Shown here piece after piece: positions 8,001 through 64,000 of a DNA stretch of 64,000 nt. A program made the position numbers and the translations under genes. Position 1 is the first letter of the stretch; every line of letters begins with the position of its first letter. A model generated the notes under the pieces. The model ran no database searches. It was not told where the DNA came from and saw only the letters and a list, made by a program, of their open reading frames with translations. The stretch covers positions 3,596,001 to 3,660,000 of the forward strand of contig OX359197.1 of assembly GCA_947172415.1 (NCBI GenBank). The letters are read 5' to 3'. The stretch is from Chondrosia reniformis. Its lineage: Eukaryota > Porifera > Demospongiae > Chondrillida > Chondrillidae.

Positions 8001-11000
8001 TACTTAAACAATTACACACAACTAGTTCATAGAAGTATTAGATACAACTAGTACACACAGCTTGTTCACAGAACGTGTACATAAATCTACCACATAAAAC
8101 TAGTACATACAACTGGTACGTAAAACTGGTACATACACCTAATACTTACAATTAGTACATACAACTAGTCCACACAACTACACCTAGTACATACAACTAG
8201 TCCATACAATTAGTACATAGAACGAGTACATACAACTAGTACCTAAAACTAGGACCTACCTATTACATATTTCAACTAGTACTAGAACCTACAATTAGTG
8301 CATACAACTAGTACATACAACTTGTAAATATAACTAGTACTAGTCCATACAACTACTACATACAATTACTTCATATAACTAGTTCATACACCTAGTACAT
8401 ACAACTAGTCCATACAATTAGTATATAGAACGAGTACATACAACTAGTACATAAAAAAGGACCTACCTATTACATGGTTCAACTAGTACTAGAACCTACA
8501 ATTAGTGCATACAACTAGTACATACAACTAGTAAATATAACTAAGACTAGTCCATACAACTAGTACATACAAATAGTACCTAGAAGTAGTAAATACAACC
8601 AGTACTAACACATACAACTAGTACATACACCTAGTACATACAACTAGTACATACACCTAGTCCATACAACTAGTACACACAAGTAGCAAATACAATTAGT
8701 TCTATAATTAGTGCATAGAACTAGTACATATAACGGGTACATAAAACTAGTACATACAACTAGAACATATAACAGGTACGTAGCCATTACATACAATTAG
8801 TTCATAGTACTTGTAAATATAACTGGTACACATCTAGTACATATGCCTAGTACATACAACTAGTACATTCAATTAAAACAAATACATAGAACATACACAC
8901 ATAACTAGAACATATAAATAGTACATATAACTAGTACATTCAACTAGAACATAAAACTAGCACAAACAATTAGTACTTACAACTAGTAACTAACAAAAAC
9001 AACTAGTACATACAACGAGTACACACAATTAGTACATACAAATATTACATTCAGCTAGTAAATTCAACTAGTACCTACAACTAGTACATACAACTATTAC
9101 CTACAACTAGTAAATATAGCCAGTACTAGTACATATAACTAGTACATACAACTAGTACATACAACTAGCTACGAGTGCATACAACCAGTACATACAACTA
9201 GCTGCAAATACATACAACTTGTACCTAAAACTAGTATATACAACTACTTCATAAAACAAGTCCATAAACAGGTAACTAGTACATATACATACACACATAA
9301 CTAGAACATAAACTAGAACATACAATTAGTATATTGAACTAGTACATACAACTAGAACCTATTTAGTGTCTATTACAACTAGTACTAGAACCCACAACTA
9401 GTACTTAAAACTAGTACATACAACAACCATCAAGTACATAAAACTAGTACTTACAACTAGTACTTACAACAAGTATCGAGTGCATACAACTAGTACATAC
9501 AACTAGTCCATACAACTAGTACATACAACTAGTACCTACCTAGTACCTAGTATAACTGATACTAGAGCGTACAACTAGTAATTACAACTAGTACATACAG
9601 CTAGTACTTACAACCAGTACATTCAACGCGTATATATAAATAGTGCCTACAACTAGTACATGCAACTAGTACATACAACTAGTACATACAACTAATACAT
9701 TCAACTAGTCCATACAACTAGTACATACAACTAGTACATTCAACTAGGACACACAACTAGTACATATTACTAGTAAACACAACTGCTACATAAAACTAAT
9801 TCATACAGAGGTAACTAGTACATATAAATAGTGTATGCAACTAGAACATAAACTAGAACATACAACTAGTACATTGAACTAGTATATACAACTAGAACCC
9901 ACGTAGTACCTAGTACAATGAGTACTAGAACCTACAACTAGTACTTACAACTGGTACATATAAATAGTGTATACAACTAGTACATGCAACTAGGACATAC
10001 AACTAATATATACAACTAGTACACACAACCAGTGCATACAACTAGTACATACAACTAGAAACTAGTACAGGCAACTAAACTAGTACATAAAAAGAGTTCA
10101 TAAAACTCAAACACACAACTAGTACGAACAACACGACATTAGTACAAACAACTAGTACATTCATCTAGTACATACAACTAGTCGATACAACTAGTTCCTA
10201 CAACTAGTTCCTACATAGTACTTAGTATAACTAGTTCTAGAACGTACAACTAGTACCTACAACTAGTACATACCACTAGTTATTACAACTAGTACATACT
10301 ACTAGTACATATAAATAGTGCATACCACTAGTACATGCAACTAGTACATACAACTAGTACATACAACTAGTACATATAAGCGGTTCATACAACTACTAAA
10401 TATAACTCGTACAAACAACTAGTACACAAATTAGTATCGAGTACATATAACTAGTACATATAACTAGAACAAACAATTAGAACATACAACTAGTACATAC
10501 AATTGGAACATAAAACTAGTACATACAACTAGTACATACAACTAAAACGTAAAACTAGTACATATAACTAGTACGCACAACTAGTACACACAACTAGTAT
10601 AGAGTACATACAACTAGTCCAGACAAGTAGTACATACCACTAGTTTTTTCAACTAGTACATACTACTAGTACGTATAAATAGTGCATACAACTAGTACAT
10701 GCAACTAGTACATACAGCTAGTACATACAACTGGAACATACAACTAGCACATACAACTAAAAAATACCACAAGTACATATAACTTGTACATACAACTAGG
10801 TACTAGTACATACAACTAGTACATACAACTAGTCCATACAACTAGTCCATACAACTGGTACACACTACTAAGACCTACCTATTACATAGTTCAACTATAC
10901 TAGAACCTACAATTAGTACATAAAACTAGTACATACAACTAGTACATACAACTAGTACATACAACTAATAGATTCAACTGGGACATAAACTAGTTCATAT

Positions 11001-11862
11001 ACCTAGTGCATACAATTAGTGCATATAACTAGTAAATATTACTAGTACTAGTCCATACAACTAGTACACACAAGTAGCAGATACAATTAGTTCTATAATT
11101 AGTATATAGAAGTAGTACATAAAACGGGTACATAAAACTAGAACATACAACTAGTACATATAACAGGTACGTAGCCATTACATACAATTAGTTCATAAAA
11201 CTTGTAAATATAACTGGTACACATCTAGCACATATACCTAGTATATACAACTAGTACATTCAATTAGTACATTTAAATAGAACATACACATATAACTAGA
11301 ACATATACATAGATCATGAAACTAGTACATTCAACTAGAACATAAAACTAGCACAAACAACTAGTACTTACAACTAGTAACTAGTAAAAACAACTAGTAC
11401 ATAACTAGTACTTAAGACTAGTTTTTACAACGAGTACGCACAATTAGTACATACAAATATTACATTCAGCTAGTAAATTCAACTAGTACCTACAACTAGT
11501 ACGTACAACTATTACCTACAACTAGTAAATAAAACCAGTACTAGTACATATAACTAGTACATACAACTAGTACATACAATTAGCTACGAGTACATTCAAC
11601 CAGTACACACAACTAGCTACGAGTACATAAAATTTGTACCTAAAACTAGTATATCCAACTACTTCATAAAACTAGTACATAGAACGATTACTTACAACTA
11701 GTAAATACATCTACTACATACAAATAGTACATAAAACTAGTCCTACAAATAGTACATACAACGAGTGCATACTACTAGTACACAAAACTAGTTCATATAA
11801 CTAGAACATACAACTAGTACATACAACTAGTACATAAAAATATTACATACAACTAGCACATA
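2073..11862 (-). repeat. Satellite A, inverted domain
   Basis: The same 13-bp satellite, but every unit reads as the reverse complement (GTACATACAACTA). Orientation changes abruptly near 2071-2073 and returns near 11862. The domain holds its own higher-order duplication: roughly 8640-9260 recurs at roughly 11030-11650, about 2.39 kb apart, marked by the rare word ggtacgtagccatt at 8775 and 11166. No gene or non-satellite island was seen inside it. Confidence 0.93.
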
Positions 11863-15867: not shown

Positions 15868-17854
15868 GTGGACTGTCTACTGCTGGATCAATCAATCTGT
15901 CTAGATGCCAAAATTATGGGCAAGCCACTTAGTGTGGCATGGATCGATTATGAGAAGGCATATGACAGAGTCCCTCACAGGTGGGTGATGAAGGTGCTAA
16001 AAACCATCAAGTGCCCAGGTTGGATCCGGAGGTCTATAGAGCTCTTCTCCAAACACTGGGCTACTGTGCTTGAGTTGAGGACCGCGGGGAAGGTGGTTAG
16101 GAGCACCCCTGTTAAATATAACAGGGGACTCTTCCAAGGAGACTCCCTATTGCCACTCCTCTTTTGTCTGGCCATAGCTCGTATATCCCAAGTTCTTAAC
16201 AGAACCAAGGGATATACCCTCTGGCATAATGGGGAAAGGAACACCATGTCACACTTGCTGTACATGGATGACCTTAAGATATATGCTGGAGGGCCTGATA
16301 AACTCAGGGAAGCCATGGAATGTGTGGAGAAAACCTCAAATGCCATTGGCATGAGGTTTGGAGTGAGAAAGTGTGGAACAGCTCACATGCAAAAGGGGAA
16401 AGTTCTGGCTGGCCCAGACAACCCTGAACGCAGTGAAGAATCCATAAGGAGCCTTGAAAAAGGTACTACCTATAAGTACCTAGGGCTAGAACAACTGTTT
16501 GAGGTAGATGACAGCAAGGTCAAAGCTTGCTTGATCAATGAATTGAGGAGGAGACTCCACAAAGTGTTGGGCTCTCACCTCAATGGTAAGAATGCTGCAG
16601 AAGCCTCTAACATGTTGTGTGCCTCTCTATTGAGATAATCTTACCCAGTTTTGAAGTGGACTCAAAGTGAGCTTCCAAAACTGGACCGAATGGTGAGAAA
16701 GATCATGAGAAAGTACCAGTGTCATCACTATAACTCTGCCATTGAGAAGGTAAACTTGCCTCGCTCTCAAGGTGGTAGAGGGCTCTCTAGTTTTCCTTTG
16801 GATCACGACAGGGCTGTTGTGAATCTGGCAAGATACCTCCATACTGCCAATCATCCACTCACAGCTGTTGTGGTTTAACACCAAAAGTGGCTGGAGTGCT
16901 CAAAGCAGAGGAGGACTGTCTTTAAAGAAGCCAGATTGATACTGGGAAGCCATGGAATAGAACTAGCACCAGAAATGGGGCTAAGGACAGATCCCTCACA
17001 AAATAGTGTAAGACAATGGAGGAGAGTGGTGGCACGTGAACTCCGGGAGGTTTAGACTGAAAGGTTAGAAAGTAACCTAGCCAAAAAGTCTCACCAGGGC
17101 TCATACCACAGACAGGTCACAAATAGGGAGTCTTATGTGTGGCTTTCTGAGGGGAGACTCATATCTCAAACTGAGGCTCTGATTCTTGCATGATGTGCTG
17201 CACACTAGGTGGTACCGAAATAGGATTCTGAGGAATTCTAACCTCCTAATGTGCAGAGAATGTGGCAAGGCTATGGAAACAGTCAAACACAGACTAAACA
17301 TGTGTGAGCCCAAGGGCTTTTCTCTCTACAAAGAGAGGCATGACCAGGCAATACTGATAGTGTTGTGGAGATTGTTGAAAGAATATGGATTCAAGCAGGA
17401 AGAGCCCTGGTACAAACTAGAAGCAAAACCAGTCTATGAGAATAGGTCTGTCAAAATCTTGTGGAATCCTAGCATCCCTACAGATGAAGAAATGACAGAA
17501 AGAAGGCCAGACTTAGTGGTTGAGGATCGGCTATGTAAGTCCATCTACATTATTGAGATGTCAGTTCCTACTGACAGCAATATTAATGAAAGATGGCAAG
17601 AGAAGTTCCAAAAGTACCAGAAGCTGGCGGCTGATATGAGGAAACAATTTAGGGGCTACCGAATTAAGGTAGTCTTGATGATAATTGGTGCTTTGGGGAC
17701 AGTGGACACGCTCCTGGAAGACCTTAGGGGAATTCCAAAGCTGTCAAAAGATGTAGTAGAAGTGATGGGAGTGATGCAGAGAACTGTTTTCTGCTCGGCT
17801 GTAAGGATATTGAGGCGACATCTATCTGTTGAGGGATTGGGGCCTGGACGATAA
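15868..17854 (+). pseudogene. RT + restriction-like endonuclease polyprotein, broken
   Basis: Remnant of the retrotransposon polyprotein that copies element RNA into DNA at a nicked target. The first segment (15868-16638) carries RT motif A (WIDYEKAYDRVPH, residues 25-37), motif B (GLFQGDSLLPLLF, 87-99), the YMDD catalytic motif (132-135) and TYKYLG (201-206), so the aspartates are intact. A TAA at 16636-16638 interrupts the frame, which continues in the same frame to a second stop at 16876-16878. A degenerate linker follows, with stops and a frame change. The last segment (17186-17854) has a zinc knuckle (C23, C26, H35, C40) and RRPD followed by E124, a PD-X14-E restriction-like endonuclease signature, then conserved-looking IGALGTV. 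Upstream of 15868 the frame is shifted near 15860. With several stops and shifts it cannot make a functional protein. The domain assignment is firm; the clade is not. Confidence 0.85.
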
Positions 17855-21100: not shown

Positions 21101-21409
21101 TACAAGTTGTATGTACAGGTTTATGTAATAGTTGTATGTGCTGATTGAATGTGCTAGTTGTATTAATAACTTTATGCACTTTTTATGTACTAGTTGTATG
21201 AACTAGTTGTATGAACTAGTTGTAGGTACTACTACTGGATAATATTAAATAGTTGTATGTACTAGTTATATGTACTAGTTGTATGTACAAGGTATATATA
21301 CTAGTTATGTACTACTTCTATGTACTAGTTGAAATACTAGTTATATGTACTGGTTTTATGTGCTATTTGTATGTACTATTTGCATGCACAAGTTATATTT
21401 ACTAGCTGT
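18123..21409 (+). repeat. Satellite A, forward
   Basis: Forward 13-bp satellite with clear higher-order blocks: the segment with tagtactagctatagtttta occurs near 18188, 19770 and 20227, and again near 35075. It contains one short inverted patch, listed separately. No gene is visible; small open frames rich in Y, V, L, C and S are translations of the 13-mer. Confidence 0.93.
20428..20535 (-). repeat. Short inverted patch within satellite A
   Basis: About eight units read as the reverse complement (tagtacatacaactag) within otherwise forward satellite. A homologous inverted patch with matching downstream sequence lies at 40945-41045, so the patch belongs to a larger duplicated higher-order block. 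Confidence 0.85.
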
Positions 21410-21422
21410 ATGTACCGGTACT

Positions 21423-22564
21423 TGGACTACCGGGGTATTAGTCTACTAATTGTTCCAGGGAAGGTGTACGCTACTGTATTTGATAAGAGGATACGAGCCA
21501 TCACTGAAGAGAGTGTACTAGAAGAAAATGGTGCATTCCGGAGGCAAAGAAGCTGCATTGATCAGTTATTCACAGTGAGACAACTCGAGGAGAAGATAAT
21601 TGAGAAGAACAAAACAATGAACATGGTATGCATAGACCTAGAAAAAGCCTTTGACACAGTGAATAGGATGTTGCTATGGTTGGTGGTAGAGAGATATGGT
21701 GTCAAGAGGAGGCTGAAGGAAGCAGTGAAGTCTCTGTACCTAAGAAGTGAAGCATGTGTACGGATACAGGGGCAAAATTCAGACTGGTTTGGTGTAGAGA
21801 GAGGGTGTGAGACAGGGGTGCACCTTGTTGCCTTGGCTTTTTAACCTATTTCTGGACAACATAGTGAGGGAGGCGAGGGAGAGTTTCCAGGGTGGTGTGC
21901 AGTTGGAAGCAAGTAAGGTACAATTTCTTATGTTTGCGGAAAACCTTGCGGTAGTGACTGAAAAGGAGGAGGACATGAAAAGAAATGTTGAAGTGCTCAA
22001 TGAAGTAATGACAGAGTGGAAGATGAAGATAAACTGGGAGAAGACCAAGGTGCTGGTAGTACAGAGGGGAGGTGGCACATGTCACATAGCTGTGGATGGA
22101 GTTGAGGTGGAAGGAGTACAGACAGCAAAATATTTGGGGGCCATGTTTAATGATGAAGGATCATGCGATCATGAGATTGAGAACAGGATTGGGGCAGCAG
22201 CAAGAATGGTGGGGGCATTAAGAAGTGAAATTATTGAACGCAAAGAGCTGTGGAGATGAGGTACCTTAGGAGAGTAGAAGGTGTGACCAGAATGGACAGA
22301 TTAATAAATGAAGATATTAGAAGAAGGCTGGAGGTTGAAGCAGTTTTAGAAGTGGCAGATAGGAAGGAGGAGTGGAGGAAAAACATGGAGGAAATGCCTC
22401 AGGAGAGGTTGGCGAGAAGAGTGTTTGAGGAAGAGGTGTGTGGTAAACGACCAAAGGGCGGCCAAGAAAGAGATGGAGAGATGACACTTAATGATTTTGC
22501 CTATATATTATTATGCAGAACAGTCTATATTCCTATAGAAACTGAAAATTTAAAGTATTTTTAA
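21423..22564 (+). pseudogene. LINE reverse transcriptase remnant, catalytically dead
   Basis: Decayed RT of a LINE. The first segment reads YRGISLLIVPGKVYATVFDK and then motif A, IDLEKAFDTVNR, to a stop at about 21842. One extra base near 21805 shifts the frame; motif B (RQGCTLLPWLFNLF) lies in the next frame from 21807. The catalytic motif that should be Y/FADD is FAEN (residues 43-46 of that segment), so both active-site aspartates of motif C are lost. A thumb-like region (VQTAKYLGAMFNDEGS) runs to 22259. The C-terminal motif RYLRRVEGVTRMDR (from about 22256) then follows in a third frame directly after ELWR, with no sequence between them, which implies an internal deletion compared with family members as I know them. 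The remainder ends at 22564. It is clearly non-functional; the family assignment rests on motif recognition, and clade choice between RTE-like and Jockey-like is open. Confidence 0.82.
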
Positions 22565-25397: not shown

Positions 25398-26453
25398 GAC
25401 AGGCTGTGGCCTAGGTGCACCAGTGGTGAAGAAAACCCTGGGTCAACCAGAATAGGTGATTCCACTGGTGCCTCCCAGGTGGATGCACCTGAATATAATA
25501 GCCTTTCTTCGGTCCCCATGACAAACCAACCAGACCTCTAGACCGAGGACATGGTTAGGGCACTAATTGATTGCTATGAGCGATCTGAACCCAAAAGAGG
25601 TGGCTATCAGAAGCGTTTAGAGCAGGAATGGCTGAGCAAATACCCACATTTGCCTCAGACCGGTCGAACCCTTGCCTTCCAAGCCAAAAGGAACTTGGTA
25701 GGAGACGGAGTACTGCAAGTAACTGGTAGCCGAGATTTAGATTTTGTTAATGATGCACCGCAAGGTGCCTCTAGAAGGAGAAGGATCCAAGGGGTGATCT
25801 GGAACCTTCAGAGGGATAATATCCTCATGGAGCTCTACCGAGAAAGTAAGCCCATGGAAAAGGGGTATGCCGAGCGGTTGTACCAGGCTTGGAATGCTAA
25901 AATGCCAGACCATAAAACCACAAAGGTAGCGCTAACTACAAGAGTTAGCAGAATCCAAAGAGGTCAAGGTCTCTCGAGACTAAACCTTGTGGAACCTGAC
26001 TCTCGTGGTTTAGCCACCCTAACTGAGACTGTCGAGGAAGGTGTGAGAGCCCAGGGGCAGGAAGAGCCACACCAAGTTCAGGCCAGGACTGGACAAAATG
26101 GTGAGCTGTTTACAGGCGCTGTTGAAACTCCCTCACATTATCATCCCAGTCCCAGGACAAGTGGCAATGATCATCTGTTGCAACTTTTAGGCAAAGCAAA
26201 AGATGCCTGTCTCCGAAAGAAACCTGGAGATTTCTCTGATAGAAAACCCTGTGGGGCGGTGCGGTTCAACCATGTTGATACGGCACTGCTTCAGGAGGCA
26301 AATGATTGGGTGGAGAAAGAGTGGCAGGAAGGCCCTAGGTTGGCCTGGCACCTGAACTGCCTGGTCTACTCTGTTGCTATGGCTGTGAGGGGAAAAATAA
26401 CCAACGAATCGCAGCCATGCAACTAAGGAAGGAAATCAGACAATCAAAAGAGT
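25398..26453 (+). pseudogene. N-terminal region of the RT/RLE element, with duplicated DNA-binding-like motif
   Basis: The frame is open from the island edge at 25398 except for a TAG at 25539-25541 (context DL-stop-TEDMVRAL; possibly a decayed TGG), then open from the ATG at 25551 to 26426 (291 residues). It contains two copies of a 29-residue motif, residues 4-32 and 91-119, that align without gaps at 12 identical positions (L, Y, S, P, G, Y, R, L, Q, W, K, P). The pattern of one W with spaced L, Y and R suggests a small helical, Myb-like DNA-binding fold, but this is inference. The middle (about residues 140-215) is low-complexity and probably disordered. Near the end a frame shift places IAAMQLRKEIRQSKE in another frame up to the TAG at about 26451-26453. 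No catalytic domain is present. It is a fragment of a mobile-element protein, not a host gene. Confidence 0.65.
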
Positions 26454-46209: not shown

Positions 46210-48195
46210 GCCGAACCTGAATTTGAAGGTCCCCGAAGCTTTACAACCTATTTCCGAGTAAAAATGGCCGCCAATTTCCAAACTTTGGGCCATGAAGCCG
46301 TACAGAAGACCTTACCAATGGTAAAAATGGCCTCTGAACCTGATTAAAGGGTCCCTGAAGCTCTACGACCTATCTGCAAATAAATATGGCCACTGCTTTG
46401 AAAAGTTTGGTCTATGTAGCCGTAACAAAGGCACTCCCTAGGGTAAAAATGGCCGCCAAACCCGATTTAAGGGTCCCCGGAGCTCGATGATCTATATCTG
46501 AGTAAAAAATGGCCACCGATTTCCAAAGTTTGGGCTATGCAGCTGTAGCAAAGACTCTCCTGAGGGTAAAAATGGCCACTGAACCCGATTAAAAGTCCCC
46601 GAAGCTCTACTACCCTTTTCCGAGGTAAAATGGCCGCCGATTTCGAAAATATGGGGTATGAAGCCGTACCGAAGACCATTCCTAGGATAAAAATGACCGC
46701 CAAACCCGATTTAAGGGTTCCCGAAGCTCTATTACCTATCTCCGAGTTAAAAATGCCCACCGATCTTGAACATTCTGGCTATGAAGCCGTACCGAAGACC
46801 GTTCCTAGGATAAAAATGGCCGCCGAACCCGATTTAAAGGTCTCCAAAGCTCAACGATTAACCTCAGAGTTACAAATGGCTGCCGATTTCAAAAATATGG
46901 GCTTTCAAGCCGTACAGAAGTCAGTTTCTAGGATAAAAATGGCCGCGAACTCAATTAAAAGGTCCCAGAAGCTCTACGACCTATAACAGAGTTAAAAATG
47001 GTTGCCGATTTAGAAAATTTGGGCTATGAAGCCCTACCGAAGACCGTTCCTAGGATAAAAATGGCCGCCAAACTCGATTCCGGGTCCCTGAAGTTCTATT
47101 ACCTATCTCCGAGTTAAAAATACCCACCGATTTTGAAAATTTGGGCTATGAAGCCGTACCGAAGACGGTTCCTAGGATAAAAATGGGTGCCGAACCAGAT
47201 TTAAGGATCCCCGAAGCTCAACGACCTATCTCAGATTTAAAAATGGCCGCCGATTTCGAAAATATGGGCCATGAAGCCGTACCGCAGACCGTTCCTGGGA
47301 TAAAAATGGCCGCCGGACTCGATTAAAGGGTCCTGAAGCTCTACGACCTATCGCCGAGTTAGAAATGGCCGCTGATTTCGAAAATATTGGCTATAAAGCC
47401 GTACCGAAGACGGTTCCTTGGAAAAAAATGGCCGCCGATTTTGAAAATATGGGTTATGAAGCCGTACCAAAGACGGTTCCTAGGATAAAAATGGCCGCCA
47501 GATTCGCTTGGAAGGTCCCCGAAGCTCTATGACACATCGCCGAGTTAAAAATGGCCGCCGATTTGGAAAATATGGGCTATGATGTCGTACCGAAGACCGT
47601 TTCTTGGATAAAAATGGCCGCCGGGCTCGATTGAAGGGTCCCCAAAGCTGTACGACCTATCGCCGAGTTAAAAATGGCCGCCGATTTCGTAAATATGGGC
47701 TATGAAGTCGTACCGAAGACCGTATCTTGGATGAAAATGGCCGCCGCAGTCGATTAAAGGGTCTTCGAAGCTCTACGACCTATAGCCGAGTTAAAAATGG
47801 CCGCCGATTTCAAAAATATGGGCTATGAAGCCGTACCGAAGACGTATCCTAGGATAAAAATGGCCGCCGGACTCTATTAAAGGTTCCCCGAAGCTATACG
47901 AACTATTGGCCAGGTAAAAATGGCGCCGATTGTGAAAATATGGGCTCTTAAGCTGTACCGAAGACCGTTTCATGGATAAAATGGCCGCCGGACTCGCTTA
48001 AAGGGTCCCCGCAGCTCTACGACCTATCGCTGAGTTAAAAATGGCAGCCGATTTCGAAAATTTGGGCTATGAGGCCGTACCGAAGACGGTTCCTGGGATA
48101 AAAATGGCCGCCGGACTCGATTAAAGGTTCCCTGAAGGTCTATGACCTATCGCTGAGTTAAAAATGGCTGCCGATTGTGTAAATATGGGCTATGA
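46210..48195 (+). repeat. Satellite B, 123-bp tandem repeat, array 1 left part
   Basis: Tandem units of 123 bp marked by aaaatggccgccgattt, atgggctatgaagccgtacc and gaagctctacgacctat. The phase at the junction is GCCGAA. The first kilobase is a divergent subfamily (gccgaacccgatttaagg, ccgttcctagg). From about 47300 units resemble the ggactcgatt / ttcttgg subfamily. Short open frames such as 46630-46986 are translations of the repeat: 123 bp equals 41 codons, so one frame repeats a 41-residue peptide. Confidence 0.95.
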
Positions 48196-48878: not shown

Positions 48879-51800
48879 TATGAAGCCGTACCGAAGACCG
48901 TTTCATGGATAACAATGGCCTCCAGACTTGCTTAAAGGTCCCTGGAGCTCTATGACTTATCGGCGAGTTAAAAATGGCCGCCGATTTCATAAATATGGTC
49001 AATGAGACCGTACCGAAGACCGTTTCCTGGATAAAAATGGCCGCCGGATTCGATTAAAGGTCACCGAAGCTCTACGACCTATCGCCGAGTTAAAAATGGC
49101 CATCCATTTCGTAGATATGGGCTATGAAGCTGTACTGAAGACCGTTTCTTGGATAAAAATGGCCGCCTAACTCGATTAAAGGGTCCCCGAAGCTCTACGA
49201 CTTATCGCCGAGTTAAAATGGCCATTGATTTCGTAGATATGGGCTATGAAGCTGTACTGAAGACCGTTTCTTGGATAAAAATGGCCGCCTAACTCGATTA
49301 AAGGGTCACCGAAGCTCTACGACTTATCGCCGAGTTAAAAATGGCCGCCGATTTCGAAATTATGGGCTATGAAGCCCTACCGAAGACGGTTCCTTGGATA
49401 AAGATGGCCGCCGGACTCGTTTAAATATACCCCGAAGCTCTCCGACCTATCGCTGAGTTAAAAATGGCCGCCGATTGTGAAAATATGGGCTATAAACCCG
49501 TACCGAAGACGGTTCCTTGGATAAAAATGGCCTCCGGACTCGATTAAAGGGTCCCCCAAGTTCTACGACCTATTGCGGAGTTAAAAATGGCCGCTGATTT
49601 GGAAAATATAGGCTATTGAGCCGTATCGAAGATAGTTTCTTAGATAAAAATGGCTGCTGGATTCGATTAAAGGGTCCCTAAAGCTGTATGACCTATTGCC
49701 GAGTTAAAAATGGCCGCCGATTTCGAAAATAGGGCTATGAAACCGTACCGAAGACCGTTTCTTGGATCAAAATGGCCGCGGGACTCGATTAAAGGGTCCC
49801 TGAAGCTCTACGACCTATCGCCGAAGTAAAACTGTCCGCCGATTCGAAAAATATGGGCTATAAAGCCGTATCGAAGATCGTTTCTTGGATTAAAATGGCC
49901 GCCGGACCAGATTAAAGGGTCCCCGAAACTCTACGACCTATCGCCGAGTTAAAAATGGCCGCTGATTTCGAAAATATGGGCTATGAAGCCGTACCAAAGA
50001 CGGCTCCTTGGATAAAAATAGCCGCTGGACTCGATTAAAGGGTCTCTGAAGCCCCACGACCTATTATCAAGTTTAAAATGGCCGCCGATTTCGAAAATAT
50101 GGGCTATGAAGCTTTTCCGAAGACCGTTTCTTGGATAAAAACTGCCGCCGGACTCGATTAGAGGGACCCCGAAGCTCTACAACCTATCGCCGAGTTAAAA
50201 ATAGCCGCCCATTTCGAAAATATGGGCTATGAAGCCGTACCGAAGACCGTTATTTGGATAAAAATGGCCGCTGGACTTGATTAAAGGGTCCCCGAAGCCC
50301 TACGATCTATCGCCGAGCTAAAAACGGCCGCTGATTTCGAAAATATTGGCTATGAAGCTGTATCGAAGATAGTTTCTTAGATAAAAATGCCGGACTCGAT
50401 TAAAGGGTTGCTGAAGCTGTACGACCTATTGCCAAGTTTAAAATGGCCGCCGATTTCGAAAATATGGGCTATGAAGCCGAACTAAAGACCGTTTCTTGGA
50501 TAAAAATGGCCGCCGAACTCGATTAAAGGTTCCCCCAAGCTCTATGCCCTATCGCTGAGTTAAAAATGGCCGGCGATTTCGAAAATATGGGCTATGAAGC
50601 CCTACCGAAGATCGTTTCTAGGATACAAATGGCCACTGAAGTCGATGAAAGGGTCCCCAAAGCTCTATGACCTATCGCCGGGTTAAAAATGGCCGCCGAT
50701 TTCGATATTATGGGCTATGAAATCGTACCGAGGACGATTCCTTGGAGAAAAATTGCCGCCGGACTCAATTAAAGGGTCCCCAAAGCTCTACGACCTATCG
50801 CCGAGTTAAAATGGCTGCTGATTGTGAAAATATGGGCTATGAAGCCGTATCGAAGCTGGTTCCTTGGATAAAAATGGCCACCTGACTCGATTAAAGGGTC
50901 CCCGAAGGTCTACGACCTCTCCGAGTTAAAAATGGCCGCCGATTTCGAAAATATGGGCTATGAAGCCGTCCCGAAGACGGTTCCTTGGATAAAAATGGCC
51001 GCCGGTCTCGATTAAAGGGTCCTCGAAGCTCTATGACCTATCGCCGAGTTAAAAATGGACGCCGATTTCGAAAATATTGGCATTGAAGCCGTACCAAAGA
51101 CGGTTCCTTGGATAAAAATGGCTGCCGGTTTCGATTAAAGGGTCCTTGAAGCTCTACGACCTATCGCCGACTTAAAAATGGCCGCCGATTTCGAAAACAT
51201 GGGCTATGAAGCCGTACCAAAGACCGTTTCTTGGATAAAAATGGGCGCGGGACTCGATTAAAGGGCCCCGAAGGTGTACGACCTATCGCCGAGTTAAAAA
51301 TGTCCGCCGATTTGGAAAATATGGGCTATAAAGCCTTATCAAAGATCGTTTCTTGGATAAAAATGGCCGCCGGACTCGATAAAAGGGTCCCCGAAGCTCT
51401 ACGACCTATCGGTGAGTTAAAAATGGCCGCCGATTTCGAAAATATGGGCTATGAAGCCGTATTGAAGAAAATTTCTTGGATTAAAATGGCCGCCGGACTT
51501 GATTAAAAGGTCCCCGAAACTCTACGACCTATCGCCGAGTTAAAAATGGCCGCCGATTTCAAAAATATGGGCTATGAAACCGTACCGAAGACGGTTCCTT
51601 GGATAAAAATGGCTGCCGTACTGGATGAAAGGGTCTCCGAAGCCCCACAACCTATCGTAGAGTTTAAAATGGCCGCCGATTTCGATAATAGGGGCTATAA
51701 AGTCGTAATGAAGACCGTTTCTTGGATAAAAATGGCCGCCGGACTCGAATAAAGGGTCCCCGCAGCTCTACGACCTATGATCGAGTTAAAAATGGCCACC

Positions 51801-51968
51801 GATATCGAAAATATGGGCTATGAAGCCGTTCCAAAGACCGTTTCGAGGATAAAAATGGCCCCCGGACTAGATTAAAGGTTCACCTAAGCTCTACGATCTA
51901 TCGCCGAGTAAAAATGGCCGCCGATTTCGAAAATATGCGGTATGAAGCCGTATCGAAGATAGTTTCTT
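48879..51968 (+). repeat. Satellite B, array 1 right part
   Basis: Continues the 123-bp array after the MITE. The typical unit here carries ggactcgattaaaggg, tcgccgagttaaaa and gtttcttggataaaa. A nearly exact one-unit duplication lies at about 49099-49343 (shared variants ttcgtagatatggg and cgcctaactcg). Many units contain single-base deletions in the A-run before atggcc, so no reading frame is maintained. The array ends at gatagtttctt, where satellite A resumes. Confidence 0.95.
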
Positions 51969-54453: not shown

Positions 54454-57400
54454 GCCGAATCCGAATAAATGGTCCCCGAAGCTCTAAGACCTATCACCGA
54501 GTTAAAAATTGCCGCCTATTTTGAAAATATGGGCTATGAAGCCGTACCGAAGATAGTTTCTAGGATAAAAATTGCCGCCGAATCCGATTAAAGGGTCCCC
54601 GAAGCTCTACGACCTATCCCTGAGTTAAAAATGGCCGCCGATTTCGAAAATATGGGCTATGAAGCCGTAACGAAGACCATTTCTAGTATAAAAATGGCCG
54701 CCGAATCCGATTAAAGGTTCCCCGAAGCTCCACGACCTATCACCGAGATAAAAATGTCCACCGATGTCGAAAATATGGGCTATGAAGCCGTACCGAAGAC
54801 AGTTTCTAGGATAAAATGGCCGCCGAATCTGAATAAAGGGTCCCCGAAGGTCTACGACCTATCCTTGAGATAAAATGGTCGCCGATTTCGAAAATATGGG
54901 CTGTGAAGGCTTACCGAAGACCTTTCTGGGATAAGAATGGCCGCCGAATCCGATTAAAGGGTCCCCGAAACTCTACAACCTATCCCCGAGTTAAAAATGG
55001 CCGTCGATTTCGAAAATATGGTCTATGAAACTGTACCGAAGACCGTTTCCAGGATAAAAATGGCCGCCGAAACGAACTGAAGGGTCCCCGAAGCTCTACG
55101 AACTATCACCGAGTTAAAAATGGCTGCTGATTTCGAAAATATGGGCTATGAAGCCGTCCCGAAGATAGTTTCCAGGATAAAAATGACTGCCAAATCCGAT
55201 TAAAGGGTCCCCGAAACTCTACAACCTATCCCCGAGTTAAAAATGGCCGTCGATTTCGAAAATATGGTCTATGAAACTGTACCGAAGACCGTTTCCAGGA
55301 TAAAAATGGCCGCCGAAACGAACTGAAGGGTCCCCGAAGCTCTACGAACTATCACCGAGTTAAAAATGGCTGCTGATTTCGAAAATATGGGCTATGAAGC
55401 CGTCCCGAAGATAGTTTCCAGGATAAAAATGACTGCCAAATCCGATTAAAGGGTCCCCGAAGCTCTACGACCTATCCCCAAGTTTAAAATGGCCCCCGAT
55501 TTTGAAAATATGGGCTATGAAGCCGTAACAAAGACAGTTTCTAGGATAAAAATGGCCGCTGAATCCGATTAATGGGTCCCCGAAGCTCTACGACCTATCC
55601 CCGAGTTAAAAATGGACGCAAATTTCGAAAATATGGGCTATGAAGCCATAACGAAGACCGTTTTTAGGATAAAAACGGTCGCCGAATCTGAATAAATGGT
55701 CCCCGGAGCTCTACGACCTATCCCCGAGTTAAAAATGGCCGCCAATTTGGAAAATATGGGTTTTTGAAGCCGTACCGAAGACCGTTTCTAGGATAAAAAT
55801 GGCCGCCAAATTCAATTAAAGGATCCCCCGAAGCTCTACGACCTATCCCCAAGTTAAAAATGGCCGCCGAATTTTAAAATATGGGTATTAAGGCTTACCG
55901 AAGACAGTTTCTTGGATAGAAATGGCTGCCGAATCCGATTAAAGGGACCCCGAAGCTCTACGACCTATCCTCGAGTCGAAAATGGCCGCCAATTTCGAAA
56001 ATATTGGATATGAATCCGTAAAGAAGACCTTTCTAGGATTAAAATGGCCGCCGAATCCGATTAACGGGTTCCCGAAGCTCTACGACCTCCTTCCGAGTTA
56101 AAAATGGTCGCCGATTTTGAATATATGGGCTATGAAGCCGTACCGAAGACCTTTTCCAGGATAAAAATGGCCGCCGAATCCGAATAAAGTGTCCCCGAAG
56201 CTATACGACTAATACCCGTGTTAAAAATGACCGCCTATTTTGAAAATATGGGCTATGAAGCCGTACCGAAGACCGTTTCTAGGTTAAAAATGGGAGCAGA
56301 ATCTGAATAATGGGTCCCCAAAGCTCTACGAACTATCACCGAGTCAAAAATGGCCACCGATTTTGAAAATATGGGCTCTGAAGTCGTACCGAAGACCGTT
56401 TCAGGATAAAAATGGCCGCCGAATACGAATAAAGGATCCACGAAGCTCTACGACCTATCACTGAGTTAAAATGGCTGCCGGTTTTGAAAATATGGGCTAT
56501 GAAGCCGTAACAAAGACCGTTTCAAGGATAAAAATGGCCACCGAATCCGAAAAAAGGGTCCCCGAAGTTCTACGATCTATCACCGAGTTAAAAATGGTCG
56601 CCGATTTCGAAAATATGGGCTATGAAGCCATACCGAAGACCTTTTCTAGGATAAAAATGGCTGCCGAATCCGAATAAATGGTCCCCGAAGCTCTACGACC
56701 TATCACCGAGTTAAAAATTGCCGCCTATTTTGAAAATATGGGCTATGAAGCAGTACCGAAGACGTTTCCAGGATATAAATGGCCGCCGAATCCGAATGAA
56801 GGGTCCCCGAAGCTCTACGACCTATCATCGAGTTAGAAATGGTCTCCGATTTTGAAAATATGGGCTATGAAGTCGTACCTAAGACCATTTCCAGGATAAA
56901 AATGGCCGCCGAATTCGAATAAAGGGTCCCCGAAGCTCTACGACCTATAACCGAGTTAAAATTGCCGCCCATTTTGAAAATGTGGGCTATGAAGCCGTAC
57001 TGAAGACGTTTCCAGGATAAAAATGGCCGACGAATCCGAATAAAGGGTCCCTGAAGCTCTACGACCTATCACCGAGTTAAAAATGGCCACCGATTTCGAA
57101 AAAATGGGCTATGACGCCGAACCGACGACTGTTTCCAGGATAAAAATTGCCGCCAATTTTGAAAATATGGGTTATGAAGCCGTACCGAAGAACGTCTCTA
57201 GGTTAAAATTGGCCGCAGAATCAGAATAATGGGTCCCCGAAGCTCTACGACCTATCACCGAGTCAAAAATGGCCACCGATTTTGAAAATATGGGCTATGA
57301 AGCCGTACCCAAGACAGTTTCTAGGATAAAAATGGCCGACGAATCCGAAGAACTGATCCCCGAAGGTCTTCGACCTATTGCCGAGTTAAAAATGGCCGCC

Positions 57401-60400
57401 AATTTCGAAAATATGGGCTATGAAACCGTAATGAAGGTCGTTTCTAGGATAAAAATGGCCGCCGAATTTGATTAAAGGGTCCCCGAAGCTCTACGACCTA
57501 TCCCCGAGTTAAAAATGGCCCTCGACTTCAAAAATATGGGCTATGAAGTTGTAACAAAGACTGTTTCTAGGATAAAAATGGCCGCCTAATCCGATTAAAG
57601 GGTTCCTCGAAGCTCTACGACCTATCCCGAGTTAAAAATGGCCGCCGATATTGAAAATATGGGCTATGAAGCTGTACCGAAGATAGTTTCTAGGATAAAA
57701 ATTGCCGCCGAATCCGATTAAAGGGTCCCCGAAGCTCTACGAACTATCCCCGAGTTAAAAATGGCCGCCGATTTCGAAAATAAGGGCTATGAAGCCTTAA
57801 CGAAGACCATTTCTAGGATAAAAATGCCGCCGAATCCGATTAAAGGGTCCCCGAAGCTCCACGACCTATCACCGAGATAAAAATGTCCACCGATTTCGAA
57901 AATATGGGCTATGAAGCCGTACCGAAGACAGTTTCTAGGATAAAAATGGACGCCGAAACTGAATAAAGGGTCCCCGAAGGTCTACGACCTATCCTTGAGA
58001 TAAAAATGGTCGCCGAATTCGAAAATATGGGCTGTGAAGGCTTACCGAAGACCTTTCTGGGAAAAGAATGGCCGCCGAATCCGATTAAAGGGTCCCTGAA
58101 GCTCTACGACCTATCTCCGAGTTAAAAATGGCCGCTGATTTCGAAAATATGGTCTACGAAGTTGTAACAAAGACCATTTCTAGGATAAAAATGGCCGCCG
58201 AATGCGATTAAAGGGTCCCTGAAGCTCTACGACCTATCCCCGAGTTAAAAATGGCCGTCGATTTCGAAAATATGGGCTATGAAACGGTTACGAAGAACAT
58301 TTCTAACATAAAATGGCCGCCGAATCAGAATTAAGGATCCCAGACGCTCTACGACCTATCACCGAGATAAAAATGGCCGCCGATTTCGAAAATATGGGCT
58401 ATGAAGCCGTATCGAAGACAGTTTCTAGGATAAAAATGGCCGCCGAATCCGATAAAAGTGTCCCCGAAGCTCCACGACCTATCACCGAGATAAAAATGTC
58501 CACCGATTTCGAAAATATGGGATATGAAGCCGTCCCGAAGACAGTCTCTAGGATAAAAATGGCCGCCGAATCTGAATAAAGTGTCCCCGAAGGTCTACGA
58601 CGTATCACCGAGTTAAAAATGGCCGCTGATTTCGAAAATATGGGCTATGAAACCGTAACGAAGATCATTTCTAGGAAAAAACTTTCCCCCTGAATCCGAT
58701 TAAAGGGTCCCCGAACCTTTACGACCTATCCCTGAGTTAAAAATGGCAGTTGATTTCGAAAATATGGGCTATGAAGCCGTACCGAAGACAGTTTCTAGGA
58801 TAAAAATGGCCGACGAATCCGAAGAACGGATCCCCGAAGGTCTTCGACCTATCACCGAGTTAAAAACGGCCGTCGATTTCGAAAATATGGGCTATGAGGC
58901 CGCACCGAAGATAGTTTCTAGGATAAAAATGGCCGCCGAATCCGATTAAAGAGTCCCCGAAGCTCTACGACCTATCCCTGAGTTAAAAATGGCCGTCGAT
59001 TTTGAAAATATGGGCTATGATGTCGTCCCGAAGTCCGTTTCTAGGATGAAAATGTCCGCCTAATCTGATTATAGGGTCCCAGAAGCTCTACGACCTATCC
59101 CGAGTTAAGAATGGCCGACGATTTCGAAAATATGGGCTATAAAGTTGAAACGAAGACCATTTGTAGGATAAAAATGGCCGCCTAATCAAATTAAAGGGTC
59201 CCCGAAGCTCTACGACCTATCCCCGAGTTGAAAATGGCCGCCGATTTCGAAAATATGGGCTATGAAGCCTTAACGAAGACCATTTCTAGGATAAAAATGG
59301 CCGCTGAATCCGATGAAAGGGTCCCCGAAGCTCCACGACCTATCACCGAAATAAAATTTCCACCTATTTCGAAAATATGGGCTATGAGGCCGTACCGAAG
59401 ACAGTTTCTAAGATAAAAATGGCCGCCGAATCTGAATAAAGTGTCCCCGAAGGTCTACGACGTATCACCGAGTTAAAAATGGCCGCTGATTTCGAAAATA
59501 TGGGCTATGAAACCGAAAAAACTTGCCCCCGAATCCGATTAAAGGTCCCCGAAGCTTTACGACCTATCCCTGAGTTAAAAATGGCCGTCGATTTCGAAAA
59601 TATGGGCTGTGAAGGCTTACCGAAGACCGTTTCTAGGATAAAAATGGCCGCCAAATCCGATTAAAGGTTCTCCGAAGCTCTACGACCTATCCCTGACTTA
59701 AAAATGACCCCCGATTTCGAAAATATGGGCTATGTAGTTGTAACGAAGACCGTTTCTAGGATTAAAATGGCCGCCTAATCCGATTAAAGGGTCCCAGAAG
59801 CTCTACGACCGATCCCGAGTTAAGAATGGCCGACGATTTCGAAAATATGGGCTATAAAGTTGTAACGAAGACCATTTGTAGGATAAAAATGGCCGCCTAA
59901 TCCAATTAAAGGGTCCCCGAAGCTCTACGACCTATCCCCGAATTGAAAATGGCCGCCGATTTCGAAAATATGGGCTATGAAGCCCTAACGAAGACCATTT
60001 CTAGGATAAAAATGGCCGCTGAATCCGATGAAAGGTCCCCGAAGCTCCACGACCTATCACCGAAATAACATGTCCACCTATTTCGAAAATATGGGCTATG
60101 AAGCCGTACCGAAGACAGTTTCTAGGATAAAAATGGCCGCCGAATCTGAATAAAGTGTCCCCGAAGGTCTACGACGTATCACCGAGTTAAAAATGGCCGC
60201 TGATTTCGAAAATATGGGCTATGAAACCGTAACGAAGATCATTTCTGGGAAAAAACTTGCCCCCGAATCCGATTAAAGGGTCCCCGAAGCTTTACGACCT
60301 ATCCCTGAGTTAAAAATGGCTGTCGATTTCGAAAATATGGGCTGTGAAGTCTTACCGAAGACCGTTTCTAGGATAAAATGGCCGCCAAATCCGATTAAAG

Positions 60401-63385
60401 GTTCTCCGAAGCTCTACGACCTGTCCCTGACTTAAAAATGACCCCCGATTTCGAAAATATGGGCTATGTAGTTGTAACGAAGACCGTTTCTAGGATTAAA
60501 ATGGCCGCCTAAACCGATCAAAGGTCCCCGAAACTCAACGAGCTATCCCCAAGTTAAAAATGGCCGCCGATTTGAAAATATGGGCTATGAAACCGTAACG
60601 AAGATCGTTTCTAGGATAAAAATGGCCGCCGAATTTGATTAAAGGGTCCCCGAAGCTCTACGACCTATCCCTGAGTTTAAAATGGCCGCCGATTACGAAA
60701 ATATGGTCTATGAAGTTGTAACAAAGACCGTTTCTAGGATAAAAATGGCCGCCTAATCAAATTAAAGGGTCCCCGAAGCTCTACGACCTATCCCCGAGTT
60801 GAAAATGGCCGCCGATTTCGAAAATATGGGCTATGAAGCCCTAACGAAGACCATTTCTAGGATAAAAATGGCCGCTGATTCCGATGAAAGGGTCCCCGAA
60901 GCTCCACGACCTATCACCGATATAAAATGTCCACCTATTTCGAAAATATGGGCTATGAAGCGGTAACGAAGACTATTTCTAGGATAAAATGGCCGCCGAA
61001 TCAGAATTTAGGATCCCCGACACTCTACGACCTATCGCAGAGATAAAAATGGCCGCCGATATCGAAAATATGGGCTATGAAGCCGTACCGAAAGGTTTTG
61101 TAGGATAAAAATGACCGACGAATTCGAAGAACTGATCCCCGAAGGTCTTCTACCTATCACCGAGTTTAAAATGGCCGCCGATTTCGAAAATATGGGCTTT
61201 GAAACCGTAATGAAGGTCGTTTCTAGGATAAAAATGGCCGCCGCATTTGATTAAAGGGTCCCCGAAACTCTACGACCTATCCCTGAATTAAAAATGGCCG
61301 CCGATTTCAAAAATATGGGCTAAGAAGTTGTAACAAAGACCGTTTCTAGGATCAAAATGGCCGCCTAATCCGATTAAAGGGTCCCCGAAGCCCTACGACC
61401 TATCCCGAGTTAAAAATGGCCGCCGATTTGGAAAATATGGGCTATGAAGCCGAACCGAAGATAGTTTCTAGGATAAAAATGGCCGCCGTATCCGAATAAA
61501 GGGTCCACGAAGCTCTACGACCTATCTCCGAGTTAAAAATGGCCGCCGATATCGAAAATATGAGCTATGACACCGAAACGAAGACCATTTCTAGGATAAA
61601 AATGGCCGCCGAATCCAATTAAAGGGTCCCCGAAGCTCTACGACCTATCCCGAGTTAAAAATGGCTGGCGATTTTGAAAATATGGGGTATGAAGCCGTAA
61701 CCAAGATAGTTTCTAGGATAAAAATGGCCGCCGAATCCGAATAAAGGGTCCCCGAAGCTCTACGACCTATCCCCGAATTACAAATGGCCGCCGATTTCGA
61801 AAATATGAGCTATGAAACCGAAACGAAGACCATTTCTAGGATAAAAATGGCCGCCGAATCCGATTAAAGGGTCCCCGAAGCTCCACGACCTATCACCGAG
61901 ATAAAAATGTCCACCGATTTCGAAAATATGGGCTATGAAACCGTAATAAAGGTCGTTTCTAGGATAAAAATGGCCGCCGAATTTGATAAAGGGGTCCCCG
62001 AAGCTCTACGACCTATTCCTGAGTTAAAAATGGCTGCCGATTTCGAAAATATGTGCTATGAAGTTGTAACAAAGACCGTTTCTAGGATAAAAATGGCCGC
62101 CTAATCCGATTAAAGGGTCCCCGAAGCTCTACGACCTATCCCCGAGTTAAAAATGGCCGCCGATTTTGAAAATATGGGATATGAAGCCGTACTGAAGATA
62201 GTTTCTAGGATAAAAATGACCGCCGAATCCGATTAAAGGGTCCCCGAAGCTCTACGACCTATCCCCGAGTTAAAAATGGCCGCCGATTTCGAAAATAACG
62301 GCTATGAAGCCGTACCGAAGACCGCTTCTAGGATAAAAATGGCCGCCGAATCCGAATAAAGGGTCCCCGAAGCTCTACGACCTATCCCCGAGTTAAAAAT
62401 GGCCGCCGATTTCGAAAATATAAGCTATGAAGCCGAAACGAAGACCATTTTTAGGATAAAAATGGCCGCCGAATCCGATTAAAGGGTCCTCGAAGCACTA
62501 CGACCCATTCCTGAGTTATAATGGCCGCCGATTTCGAAAATATGGTCTATGAAGCCGTAACGAAGACCATTCCTAGGATAAAAATGGCCGCCGAATCCGA
62601 TTAAAGGGACCCCGAAGCTCCACGACCTATCACCGAGATAAAAATGGCCACCGATTTCGAAAATTTGGGCTATGAAGCCGTATCGAAGACAGTTTCTAGG
62701 ATAAAAATGTCCGTCGAATCCGATTAAAGGGTCCCCGAAGCTCTACGACCTATCCCCGAGTTAAAATGGCCGCCGATTTCGAAAATATGGGCTATGAAGC
62801 GGTACCGAAGACCTCCTCTAGGATAAAAATGGCCGCCGAATCCGAATAAAGGGTCCCCGAAGCTCTACGACCTATCCCCGAGTTAAAAATGGCCGCCGAT
62901 TTCGAAAATATAGGCTATGAAGCCGAAACGAAGACCATTTTTAGGATAAAAACGGCCGCCGAATCCAATTAAAGGGTCCCCGAAGCTCTACGACCCATTC
63001 CTGGGTTAAAATTGCCGCCGATTTCGAAAATATGGTCTATGAAGCCGTATCGAAGACCATTTCTAGGATAAAAATGGCCGCCGAATCCGATTAAAGGGTC
63101 CCCGAAGCTCTACGACCTATCCCCGAGTTAAAAATGGCCGCCGATATCGAAAATATAAGCTATGAAGGCGAAACGAAGACCATTTTTAGGATAAAAACGG
63201 CCGCCGAATCCGATTAAAGGGTCCCTGAAGCTCTACGACCCAGTCCTGAGTTAAAATGGCCGCCGATTTCGAAAATATGGGTTATGAAGTTGTAACAAAG
63301 ACCGTTTCTAGGATAATAGTGGCCGCCGAATCCGATTAAAGGGTCCCCGAAGCTCTCCGACCTATCCCCGAGTAAAAAATGAACT
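54454..63385 (+). repeat. Satellite B, array 2 (about 72 units)
   Basis: 8.9 kb of 123-bp units, spacing checked directly (the word ttaaaggg at 62110 and 62233). The typical unit differs from array 1: gaatccgattaaaggg, tccccgagttaaaa and gtttctaggataaaa. Higher-order structure is present: an exact two-unit duplication at 54961-55452, a block of about six units repeating near 59.1-59.8 and 59.9-60.5 kb, and units with gccgaaacgaagaccattttt near 62434, 62924 and 63164. Each consensus unit has one TAA in the 41-codon frame; a few units carry GAT-GAA instead, giving chance open frames of 60-90 codons. Confidence 0.95.
54961..55452 (+). repeat. Exact two-unit (246-bp) tandem duplication in satellite B
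   Basis: 54961-55206 and 55207-55452 read identically by eye, including private variants (ggccgtcgatttcg, gccgaaacgaactgaagg, atgactgccaaatcc). Exact identity amid diverged units points to a very recent unequal exchange or an assembly duplicate. Confidence 0.85.
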
Positions 63386-63399
63386 CCAATTTTAAAAAA

Positions 63400-64000
63400 T
63401 AAACCTTTTTTTGCCCTCAGAGACCAGTAAGGCCATTAAGAACATCATCGCCAAAAGTGCCGATGAGGTCCAAAACGGCCATTTTGGAAATGAAGCACTT
63501 AATGGCCTCACTGGCCGGCGGGTGTCAAAATGGCATTTTTCAAAAAACGCCGTTTTTGACCCCACAGGCCAGTCAGGCCGTTAAGAGCCTTATCGCCAAA
63601 AGGGCCGATGGGATCCAAAACGGCCATTTTGGAAATGACGCCCTTAACGGTCTTACTAGCCGGCGAGTCAAAATGGCATTTTTCAAAAAACGCCGTTTTT
63701 GCCCTCACAGGTCAGTTAGGCCGTTAAGACCCTCATCGCCAAAAGGGCCGATTGGGTCCAAAACGGCCATTTTGGAAATGACGCCCTTAACGGCCTTACT
63801 GGCCGGCGGGTGTCAAAATGGCATTTTTCAAAAAACGCCGTTTTTGCCCCCACAGGCCAGTCAGGCCGTTAAGAGCCTTATCGCCAAAAGTGCCGATGAG
63901 GCCCAAAAGGGCCATTTTGGAAATGACGCCCTTAACGGCCTTACTGGCCGGCGGGTGTCAAAATGGCATTTTTCAAAAACGCCGTTTTTGCCCCCACAGG
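63400..64000. repeat. Satellite C, about 144-bp quasi-palindromic repeat
   Basis: Four units to the window edge, with spacing of 143, 145 and 144 bp measured on the word acgccgtttttg. Each unit has two dyad axes about 72 bp apart (for example near 63541.5 in tttttcaaaaa and near 63614 in ggatcc). The arms 63567-63585 and 63643-63661 pair around the second axis, and GGCC at 63513-63516 and 63567-63570 are equidistant from the first. The array is therefore alternating head-to-head and tail-to-tail units of about 72 bp. The open frame on the minus strand at 63508-63708 is a repeat artefact. The array continues beyond the window. Confidence 0.9.

Follow-up and report, generated by a model that had tools for sequence, protein, structure and literature searches.

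What is the element that begins near the right end of this stretch of the sponge Chondrosia reniformis, a tandem satellite whose unit reads nearly alike on both strands, and why do the satellites next to it point towards it from both sides? The stretch (hereafter the window, 64,000 nucleotides) is C9:3596001-3660000, i.e. part of chromosome 9 in a genome of 117,379,552 bases in 15 contigs, 14 of them large (C1-C14). The array, here called satellite C, forms the axial core of a macro-palindrome, of which one was found per chromosome, 14 in all. Each chromosome has a single, interior core locus whose adjacent flanks point inward, the unit is palindromic, the junctions are common to the chromosomes and the genome contains divergent CENP-A-like exons; on this basis, we propose that the locus is the centromere of chromosome 9, with satellite C at its symmetry axis and one such core on each of the 14 chromosomes, and predict that it binds CENP-A. 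Judged from sequence, this reading has in our view a probability of about 0.82.

The satellite C unit is ~145 bp long and nearly its own reverse complement, with a direct period near 145 bp and a symmetry axis every ~72.5 bp. Ungapped axes in the window lie at 63469, 63541.5, 63614, 63685.5, 63757, 63829.5 and 63902, and the 72-nt arms around them are 60-74% complementary, compared with a mean of 25% (standard deviation 9%) over all axes. The original prediction, made from the letters of the window, had described alternating inverted 72-bp units with two axes 72-73 bp apart, and the words it quoted are found in place: GGCCAGTCAGGCCGTTAAG at 63567 and CTTAACGGTCTTACTAGCC at 63643 are complementary at 16 of 19 positions, the inner words CCAAAAGGGCCG at 63596 and CGGCCATTTTGG at 63621 at 11 of 12, and its second axis, at 63541.5, is among those just listed. 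With arms at this level, the array is neither a set of direct-repeat diagonals only nor one with chance arm identity. The alternating inverted anatomy is real. Across the 13 cores flanked by satellite B (see below), head-to-tail matches of the 145-bp unit reach roughly 80-95% and are stronger than the inverted ones, which stand at roughly 67-75% and exceed this range only beside a strand turn, and the array is therefore a direct tandem array of an imperfect palindrome. As the whole repeat unit is palindromic, two axes half a period apart follow necessarily, so that 'alternating inverted 72-bp units' and 'a palindromic 145-bp unit' are one and the same statement.

The symmetry is a property of the family and not of this array alone. 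A 147-nt consensus built from 151 units of the 14 chromosomes matches its own reverse complement in 105 of 137 aligned columns, with a score of 140 against 25.1±5.9 (maximum 48) for 500 shuffles, and 145 of the 151 single units score above the best of 151 shuffled units. These counts refer to full-length matches of at least 75% identity, partial end units such as the leftmost C+ unit of C7 and of C10 being excluded. An exact 24-base piece of satellite C has 0 matches in viral and 0 in prokaryote contig collections, as expected for an animal satellite.

On chromosome 9, the array starts at about 63357, slightly before the 63400 given originally, and runs on past the window; the complete core is C9:3659357-3661453 (2097 nt), ending 1453 nt beyond the window, and holds 13 full-length C units, 12 of which read + and the last, at the right end, -. 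The features at and next to the core are the following.

63357-64000, + strand: left part of the satellite C core of the candidate centromere of chromosome 9, from unit counts and junction alignment
63357-63440, + strand: transition between satellite B and the first unit of C, an end unit of 'alpha' type as typed by eye, from junction alignment
63567-63711, + strand: one satellite C unit of 145 bp, an imperfect palindrome with its axis at 63614, used as genome-wide probe; it rests on the axes, the probe search and folding
54488-63356, + strand: satellite B array with a 122/123-bp unit, pointing at the core and mirrored by B units on the - strand from C9:3661454 on

When the genome was probed with this 145-bp unit, 14 candidate regions emerged, all of which were scored, one on each of C1-C14; all 150 matches listed, of 283, fall within them. 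The chance of 14 random loci hitting 14 different chromosomes is 7.0e-6. The cores are interior, the shorter arm making up at least 37.5% of the length on every chromosome, and TTAGGG telomere repeats are present at three of the four chromosome ends examined. As a separate observation, the right end of chromosome 9 (C9:7702373-7702672) carries no TTAGGG and instead a degenerate CCTACCGCCGCAAAC-like repeat, while the left end is telomeric.

Thirteen chromosomes share the order B(+), C core, B(-), i.e. satellite B points inward on both sides. In the flanks fetched from these chromosomes, the full-length B units number 528 + and 0 - on the left and 486 - and 0 + on the right (1014 of 1014 inward), and the cores between the B arrays measure 1524-2319 nt. 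The B unit consists of two related ~61-bp halves in direct order; a palindromic B unit was considered and rejected (score 16 against 21.3±4.6 for shuffles, z -1.1), as was kinship between C and B, where the score of 22 is nothing beyond chance (shuffles 18.3±3.1). Read by its better-matching strand, the C array flips strand exactly once in each of the 13 B-flanked cores, at a position that varies by chromosome. We note that this variation would fit a core able to invert as a whole or in part.

The ends of the cores recur between chromosomes. Typed by eye, the end units comprise 13 of the 'alpha' kind, eight of a diverged 'beta' kind and four of a third kind, the left end of C12 being unlike these. 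A beta unit occupies one end on eight chromosomes, and the strand turn is located there; on five chromosomes the turn lies inside the core, namely C5, C8 and C13, with alpha at both ends, and C4 and C6, with the third kind at both ends. On the eight beta chromosomes, to which this comparison was confined, the beta unit marks a conserved inversion site. Compared between chromosomes, alpha junctions show an identity of 0.863, beta junctions of 0.887 and junctions of the third kind of 0.845, and alpha against beta gives 0.743; in addition, B is cut at the same phase on most chromosomes as judged by eye, with C4, C6 and the left end of C12 as exceptions. Together, the identities and the common phase of the cut indicate that the junctions are shared among chromosomes. 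The two end junctions of one chromosome are 0.72-0.94 alike, with high values where both ends are of the same kind.

Mirrored arms of this type could in principle be produced by fold-back reads or mis-joins, and satellite regions are indeed hard to assemble, the genome note reporting 42 contigs in 14 scaffolds (PMC12181767). The comparison of the arms makes such an artefact hardly credible, and we reject it on the divergence of the B arms. It covers the 859 of the 1014 B units that lie within 5 kb of a core, on 13 chromosomes, C3 having no B arms. The closest relative of a B unit is in the same arm in 427 cases (33 expected), in the opposite arm in 40 (33 expected) and on another chromosome in 392 (793 expected), and mean identity is 0.873 within the arm, 0.864 to the opposite arm and 0.863 to other chromosomes. 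Judging by these identities, neither B arm of a chromosome is a copy of the other; that opposite arms are no more alike than arms of different chromosomes argues strongly against folding back, and the nearest-relative counts indicate that orientation has outlived arm-specific similarity. Furthermore, the examined stretches, including all 14 cores, contain no N, the arms of chromosome 3 (below) differ by 3%, and the layout recurs on 14 chromosomes. Of the 151 C units, 87 have their closest relative in the same core and on the same strand (7 expected), 12 in the same core and on the opposite strand (3 expected) and 52 elsewhere, and the relatives on the opposite strand suggest that C units may exchange across the turn. 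We did not retain an age gradient within B, since identity to the consensus declines only slightly away from the core, from 0.925-0.930 within 2 kb to 0.905-0.921 at 2-5 kb.

Chromosome 3 has the same geometry in other material. The core there (C3:3688268-3689755) consists of a diverged C array that turns strand several times, and a search of the surrounding 10 kb found no satellite B; instead, a ~250-bp satellite flanks the core in inverted orientation, + on the left and - on the right. The arms share 97.0% identity over 1927 nt and lie at mirror positions on either side of the core, giving a 6.5-kb palindrome whose outer arms derive from the ~250-bp satellite. That the arms are still 97% identical would point to recent renewal. 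The same satellite occurs near other cores, too, and among the matches listed (150 of 406, collapsed at 10 kb) its clusters point inward in 10 of 10 cases within 100 kb, in 4 of 9 at 100-300 kb and in 3 of 4 beyond.

Outside the main B array, the window is occupied by further satellite blocks.

48879-51967, + strand: outlying satellite B block in the same orientation as the main B array, from unit matches
46246-48142, + strand: outlying satellite B block, likewise in the orientation of the main array, from unit matches
11864-45762, + strand: satellite A, with a 13-bp, CTAGTTGTATGTA-like unit, interrupted in places, some of the interruptions being retroelement fragments; right of the core it reads -
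2151-11862, - strand: satellite A block in opposite orientation, by which the inward rule is broken about 52 kb from the core; bases 1-2069 read + again

Satellite A follows the inward rule close to the core. On chromosome 9, its 8-base words count 6761 + and 112 - in the 51.5 kb to the left of the core, and 53 + and 9444 - in the 64.5 kb to its right; as satellite A is strand-biased in G and C, the skew changes sign at the core. The genome-wide sample consists of long exact matches, 100 of 189 plus all 27 of a second sample, with same-strand matches no more than 1 kb apart taken as one array; the main sample ends on C9, and C10-C14 are represented via the second. Among these listed matches, arrays point inward in 19 of 19 cases within 60 kb, in 8 of 11 at 60-150 kb, in 3 of 11 at 150-300 kb, in 13 of 26 at 300-600 kb, in 12 of 23 at 600-1500 kb and in the single case beyond; when they are collapsed at 10 kb, the first two figures become 15 of 15 and 8 of 10. 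Twenty samples of 1.5 kb, taken about 15-20 kb out on ten chromosomes, show A pointing inward where it is numerous, save for two mixed samples (see below), and A is nearly absent beside the core of C3.

Some side observations concern the A blocks of the window. The strand switches at about 2.1 kb and 11.86 kb delimit a block of ~9.7 kb that is reversed against the inward rule. Reverse-transcriptase fragments (Pfam RVT_1) lie within satellite A at 15868-16638 and 21371-22259, the neighbouring frame at 17186-17854 having no Pfam match, and an open frame of 291 amino acids is located between A blocks at 25551-26426, with no Pfam match at E<=0.01.

Candidate proteins for such a centromere were sought in the same genome. 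It holds three H3 genes and a two-exon H3.3-like gene (H3.3 being named by eye), together with seven divergent CENP-A-like H3 exons in C4:2369640-3003688 (0.63 Mb), six of them open and one with stops. These are 46-55% identical to the H3 core and are single exons rather than assembled genes. The one exon compared with solved structures, L059, scores best against Cse4 and Cnp1, by the narrow margin of 84.3 and 84.2 bits to 82.5 for the best plain H3. A longer first loop is a hallmark of CENP-A, and the alignment lengths of this exon (84 residues vs 84 for Cse4, 84 vs 87 for Cnp1 and 84 vs 81 for H3) would fit it, though the bit scores are close. A centromeric histone in several copies would be out of the ordinary among animals. 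A further candidate for a divergent H3, C8:5330358, was discarded, as it reads as H2A (named by eye).

Combining these data, we propose the following scheme. CENP-A chromatin and the kinetochore would form on satellite C, or on the core plus adjacent B, and the inverted flanking satellites would constitute pericentric heterochromatin. Inverted duplication or polar amplification around the core presumably gives rise to the mirror layout and renews it; inverted duplication would be followed by tandem expansion within the same arm and by exchange with other chromosomes, such that the arms keep their orientation and not their specific likeness. Chromosome 3 would then represent a recent round of renewal with another satellite.

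Several observations weigh against the centromere reading. Beyond 52 kb on the left of the chromosome 9 core, the sense of satellite A is reversed (541 + vs 2421 -), about 20 kb out A reads in both senses at C4 left (97 + vs 192 -) and at C6 right (279 + vs 132 -), and beyond ~150 kb the orientation of both A and the ~250-bp satellite is near random among the matches listed. Among the listed matches of satellite B (848 in total), 'wrong'-strand copies occur farther out, at C7:3843116 and C10:3330291. The CENP-C family model PF11699 has no match at E<=0.001 in a six-frame search, in which genes split into exons are easily missed, and the 17-base pattern of the CENP-B box has no match in the 13 B-flanked cores and the flanks of these that were scanned. 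Finally, the C search covers those copies close enough to the probe for its first look and says nothing on more diverged ones. A site present once per chromosome could also serve something other than a centromere, e.g. meiotic pairing or replication; sequence is by itself no proof of kinetochore function, and the G/C skew of satellite A flips its sign at the core. We regard this as improbable, given that the locus is interior on all chromosomes and surrounded by nested tandem satellites, and that the listed long exact A matches all lie within 1.5 Mb of a core, save one array at C3:7003504, as expected of pericentric DNA. A related question is where in the locus CENP-A would sit. The C core would be our first choice, at about even odds; it is a substantial if clearly weaker possibility that the locus is the centromere region and C only the site at which polarity turns, a landmark of recombination or replication, with CENP-A on B or A. 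With 1.5-2.3 kb, an estimated 10-15 nucleosomes or so, the core is small for an animal centromere, and the strongest A/T-step period is near 10.25 bp in B, with a second peak at 12.25, vs 9.0 bp in C, in an analysis where only harmonics of the unit length can show up; a period near 10.25 bp is of the kind usually linked to nucleosomes. We do not claim that C phases nucleosomes: at 145 bp its unit has the size of a nucleosome, yet the A/T steps recur every 9.0 bp instead of about every 10 bp. On the other side, C is the sole satellite found at the axis of all 14 macro-palindromes, B not having been found within the 10 kb surrounding the core of chromosome 3, and dyad-rich DNA is reported at several centromeres, if not at human or most Drosophila ones (PMC9070824).

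Two further readings concern what the palindromes do. The original prediction had pointed to serial hairpins or cruciforms and to double-stranded RNA; such RNA might recruit silencing. The ability to fold is there: as single-stranded DNA, two C units fold more stably than shuffles (z = -3.95 and -4.78), and two B units do not (z = +0.52 and +1.59). One comparison argues against selection for pairing within the unit, the halves of C showing no co-variation: a unit's own halves pair at 0.7075, compared with a mean of 0.7067 when halves are re-dealt among all units (145 of 500 as good or better) and of 0.7086 when re-dealt within the chromosome (376 of 500 match or beat it). Conservation is higher in columns matched across the dyad than in unmatched ones (0.918 vs 0.876; 0 of 146 circular shifts as large), a difference that is partly expected since the comparison is biased toward its result, unmatched columns being by definition the changed ones. 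An action through folding or double-stranded RNA seems unlikely to us. Considerably more weight, not far short of an even chance, belongs to the view that the macro-palindrome has no function of its own and was left behind by repeated rounds of inverted duplication and polar amplification at a site of frequent breakage, where entering satellites are copied outward with fixed polarity. Satellites A, B and the ~250-bp one all point inward near the core, A and the ~250-bp one lose the rule with distance, chromosome 3 has a young palindrome made from another satellite, and most B units have their closest kin either within their own arm or on a different chromosome. Against it, the layout persists on 13 chromosomes despite arms without specific mutual similarity (40 of 859, where 33 are expected), suggesting that orientation is kept. 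Such a trace is compatible with the locus being a centromere. As a tentative idea, which we think more probably wrong than right, the sponge centromere would be specified by a sequence-defined palindromic core of ~2 kb that imposes polarity on the satellites within about 60-150 kb.

The centromere reading can be set beside known systems. In Tribolium beetles, putative (peri)centromeric satellites likewise turn their orientation into kilobase-scale palindromes, the inner satellite also has a palindromic unit, and conserved inversion points carry one degenerate unit (PMC13081366), the counterpart in Chondrosia being the diverged 'beta' end unit of eight chromosomes. Unrelated satellites of sister Tribolium species show macro-dyads, and symmetries of arrays at the kilobase scale are stated there to be documented only in Tribolium (PMC13081366). 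In contrast, Tribolium madens has thousands of symmetric arrays in multi-megabase regions (PMC13081366), whereas in Chondrosia one C axis was found per chromosome, with B and then A nested around it. A mirror layout is best known from fission yeast and has hardly been reported in animals. As in fission yeast and Candida tropicalis, a short core with inverted repeats on both sides occupies one place per chromosome (PMC4741521), inverted flanks being found on 13 of 13 chromosomes with B and on C3 with the ~250-bp satellite. The core of the two yeasts is, however, heterogeneous or non-repetitive, while that of Chondrosia is a tandem satellite with a palindromic unit, and the arms of C. tropicalis are more alike within a centromere than across centromeres (PMC4741521), unlike the B arms described here, chromosome 3 alone having near-identical ones. 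When tested on plasmids in C. tropicalis, inverted orientation was found to be important for centromere function (PMC4741521). With the dyad-rich, non-B-form centromeric DNA of the model of Kasinathan and Henikoff, the candidate centromere shares inverted repeats without CENP-B boxes; the centromeric dyads surveyed are below 10 bp (PMC9070824), whereas the dyad of Chondrosia spans the full 145-bp unit. No description of a sponge centromere was found by title in literature combining sponge and centromere terms, preprints not being covered, and the main text of the Chondrosia genome note does not contain the word 'centromere' (PMC12181767). One paper mentions a chromosome likely split at its centromere (PMC7385117) and another places the centromeres of unicellular relatives by Hi-C (PMC10232365).

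In conclusion, if these loci are centromeres, an early-branching animal would have compact, gap-free and individually resolved centromeres on 14 chromosomes, with a mirror architecture like that of fission yeast. Two questions would then become testable by mapping, namely whether dyad symmetry contributes to placing CENP-A and whether geometry is conserved while satellites turn over, for the latter of which chromosome 3 would be a natural experiment. Should the palindromic core indeed impose polarity on its surroundings, it would be mirror geometry and not sequence that is conserved in an animal centromere, chromosome 3 having swapped its flanking satellite and kept the geometry.
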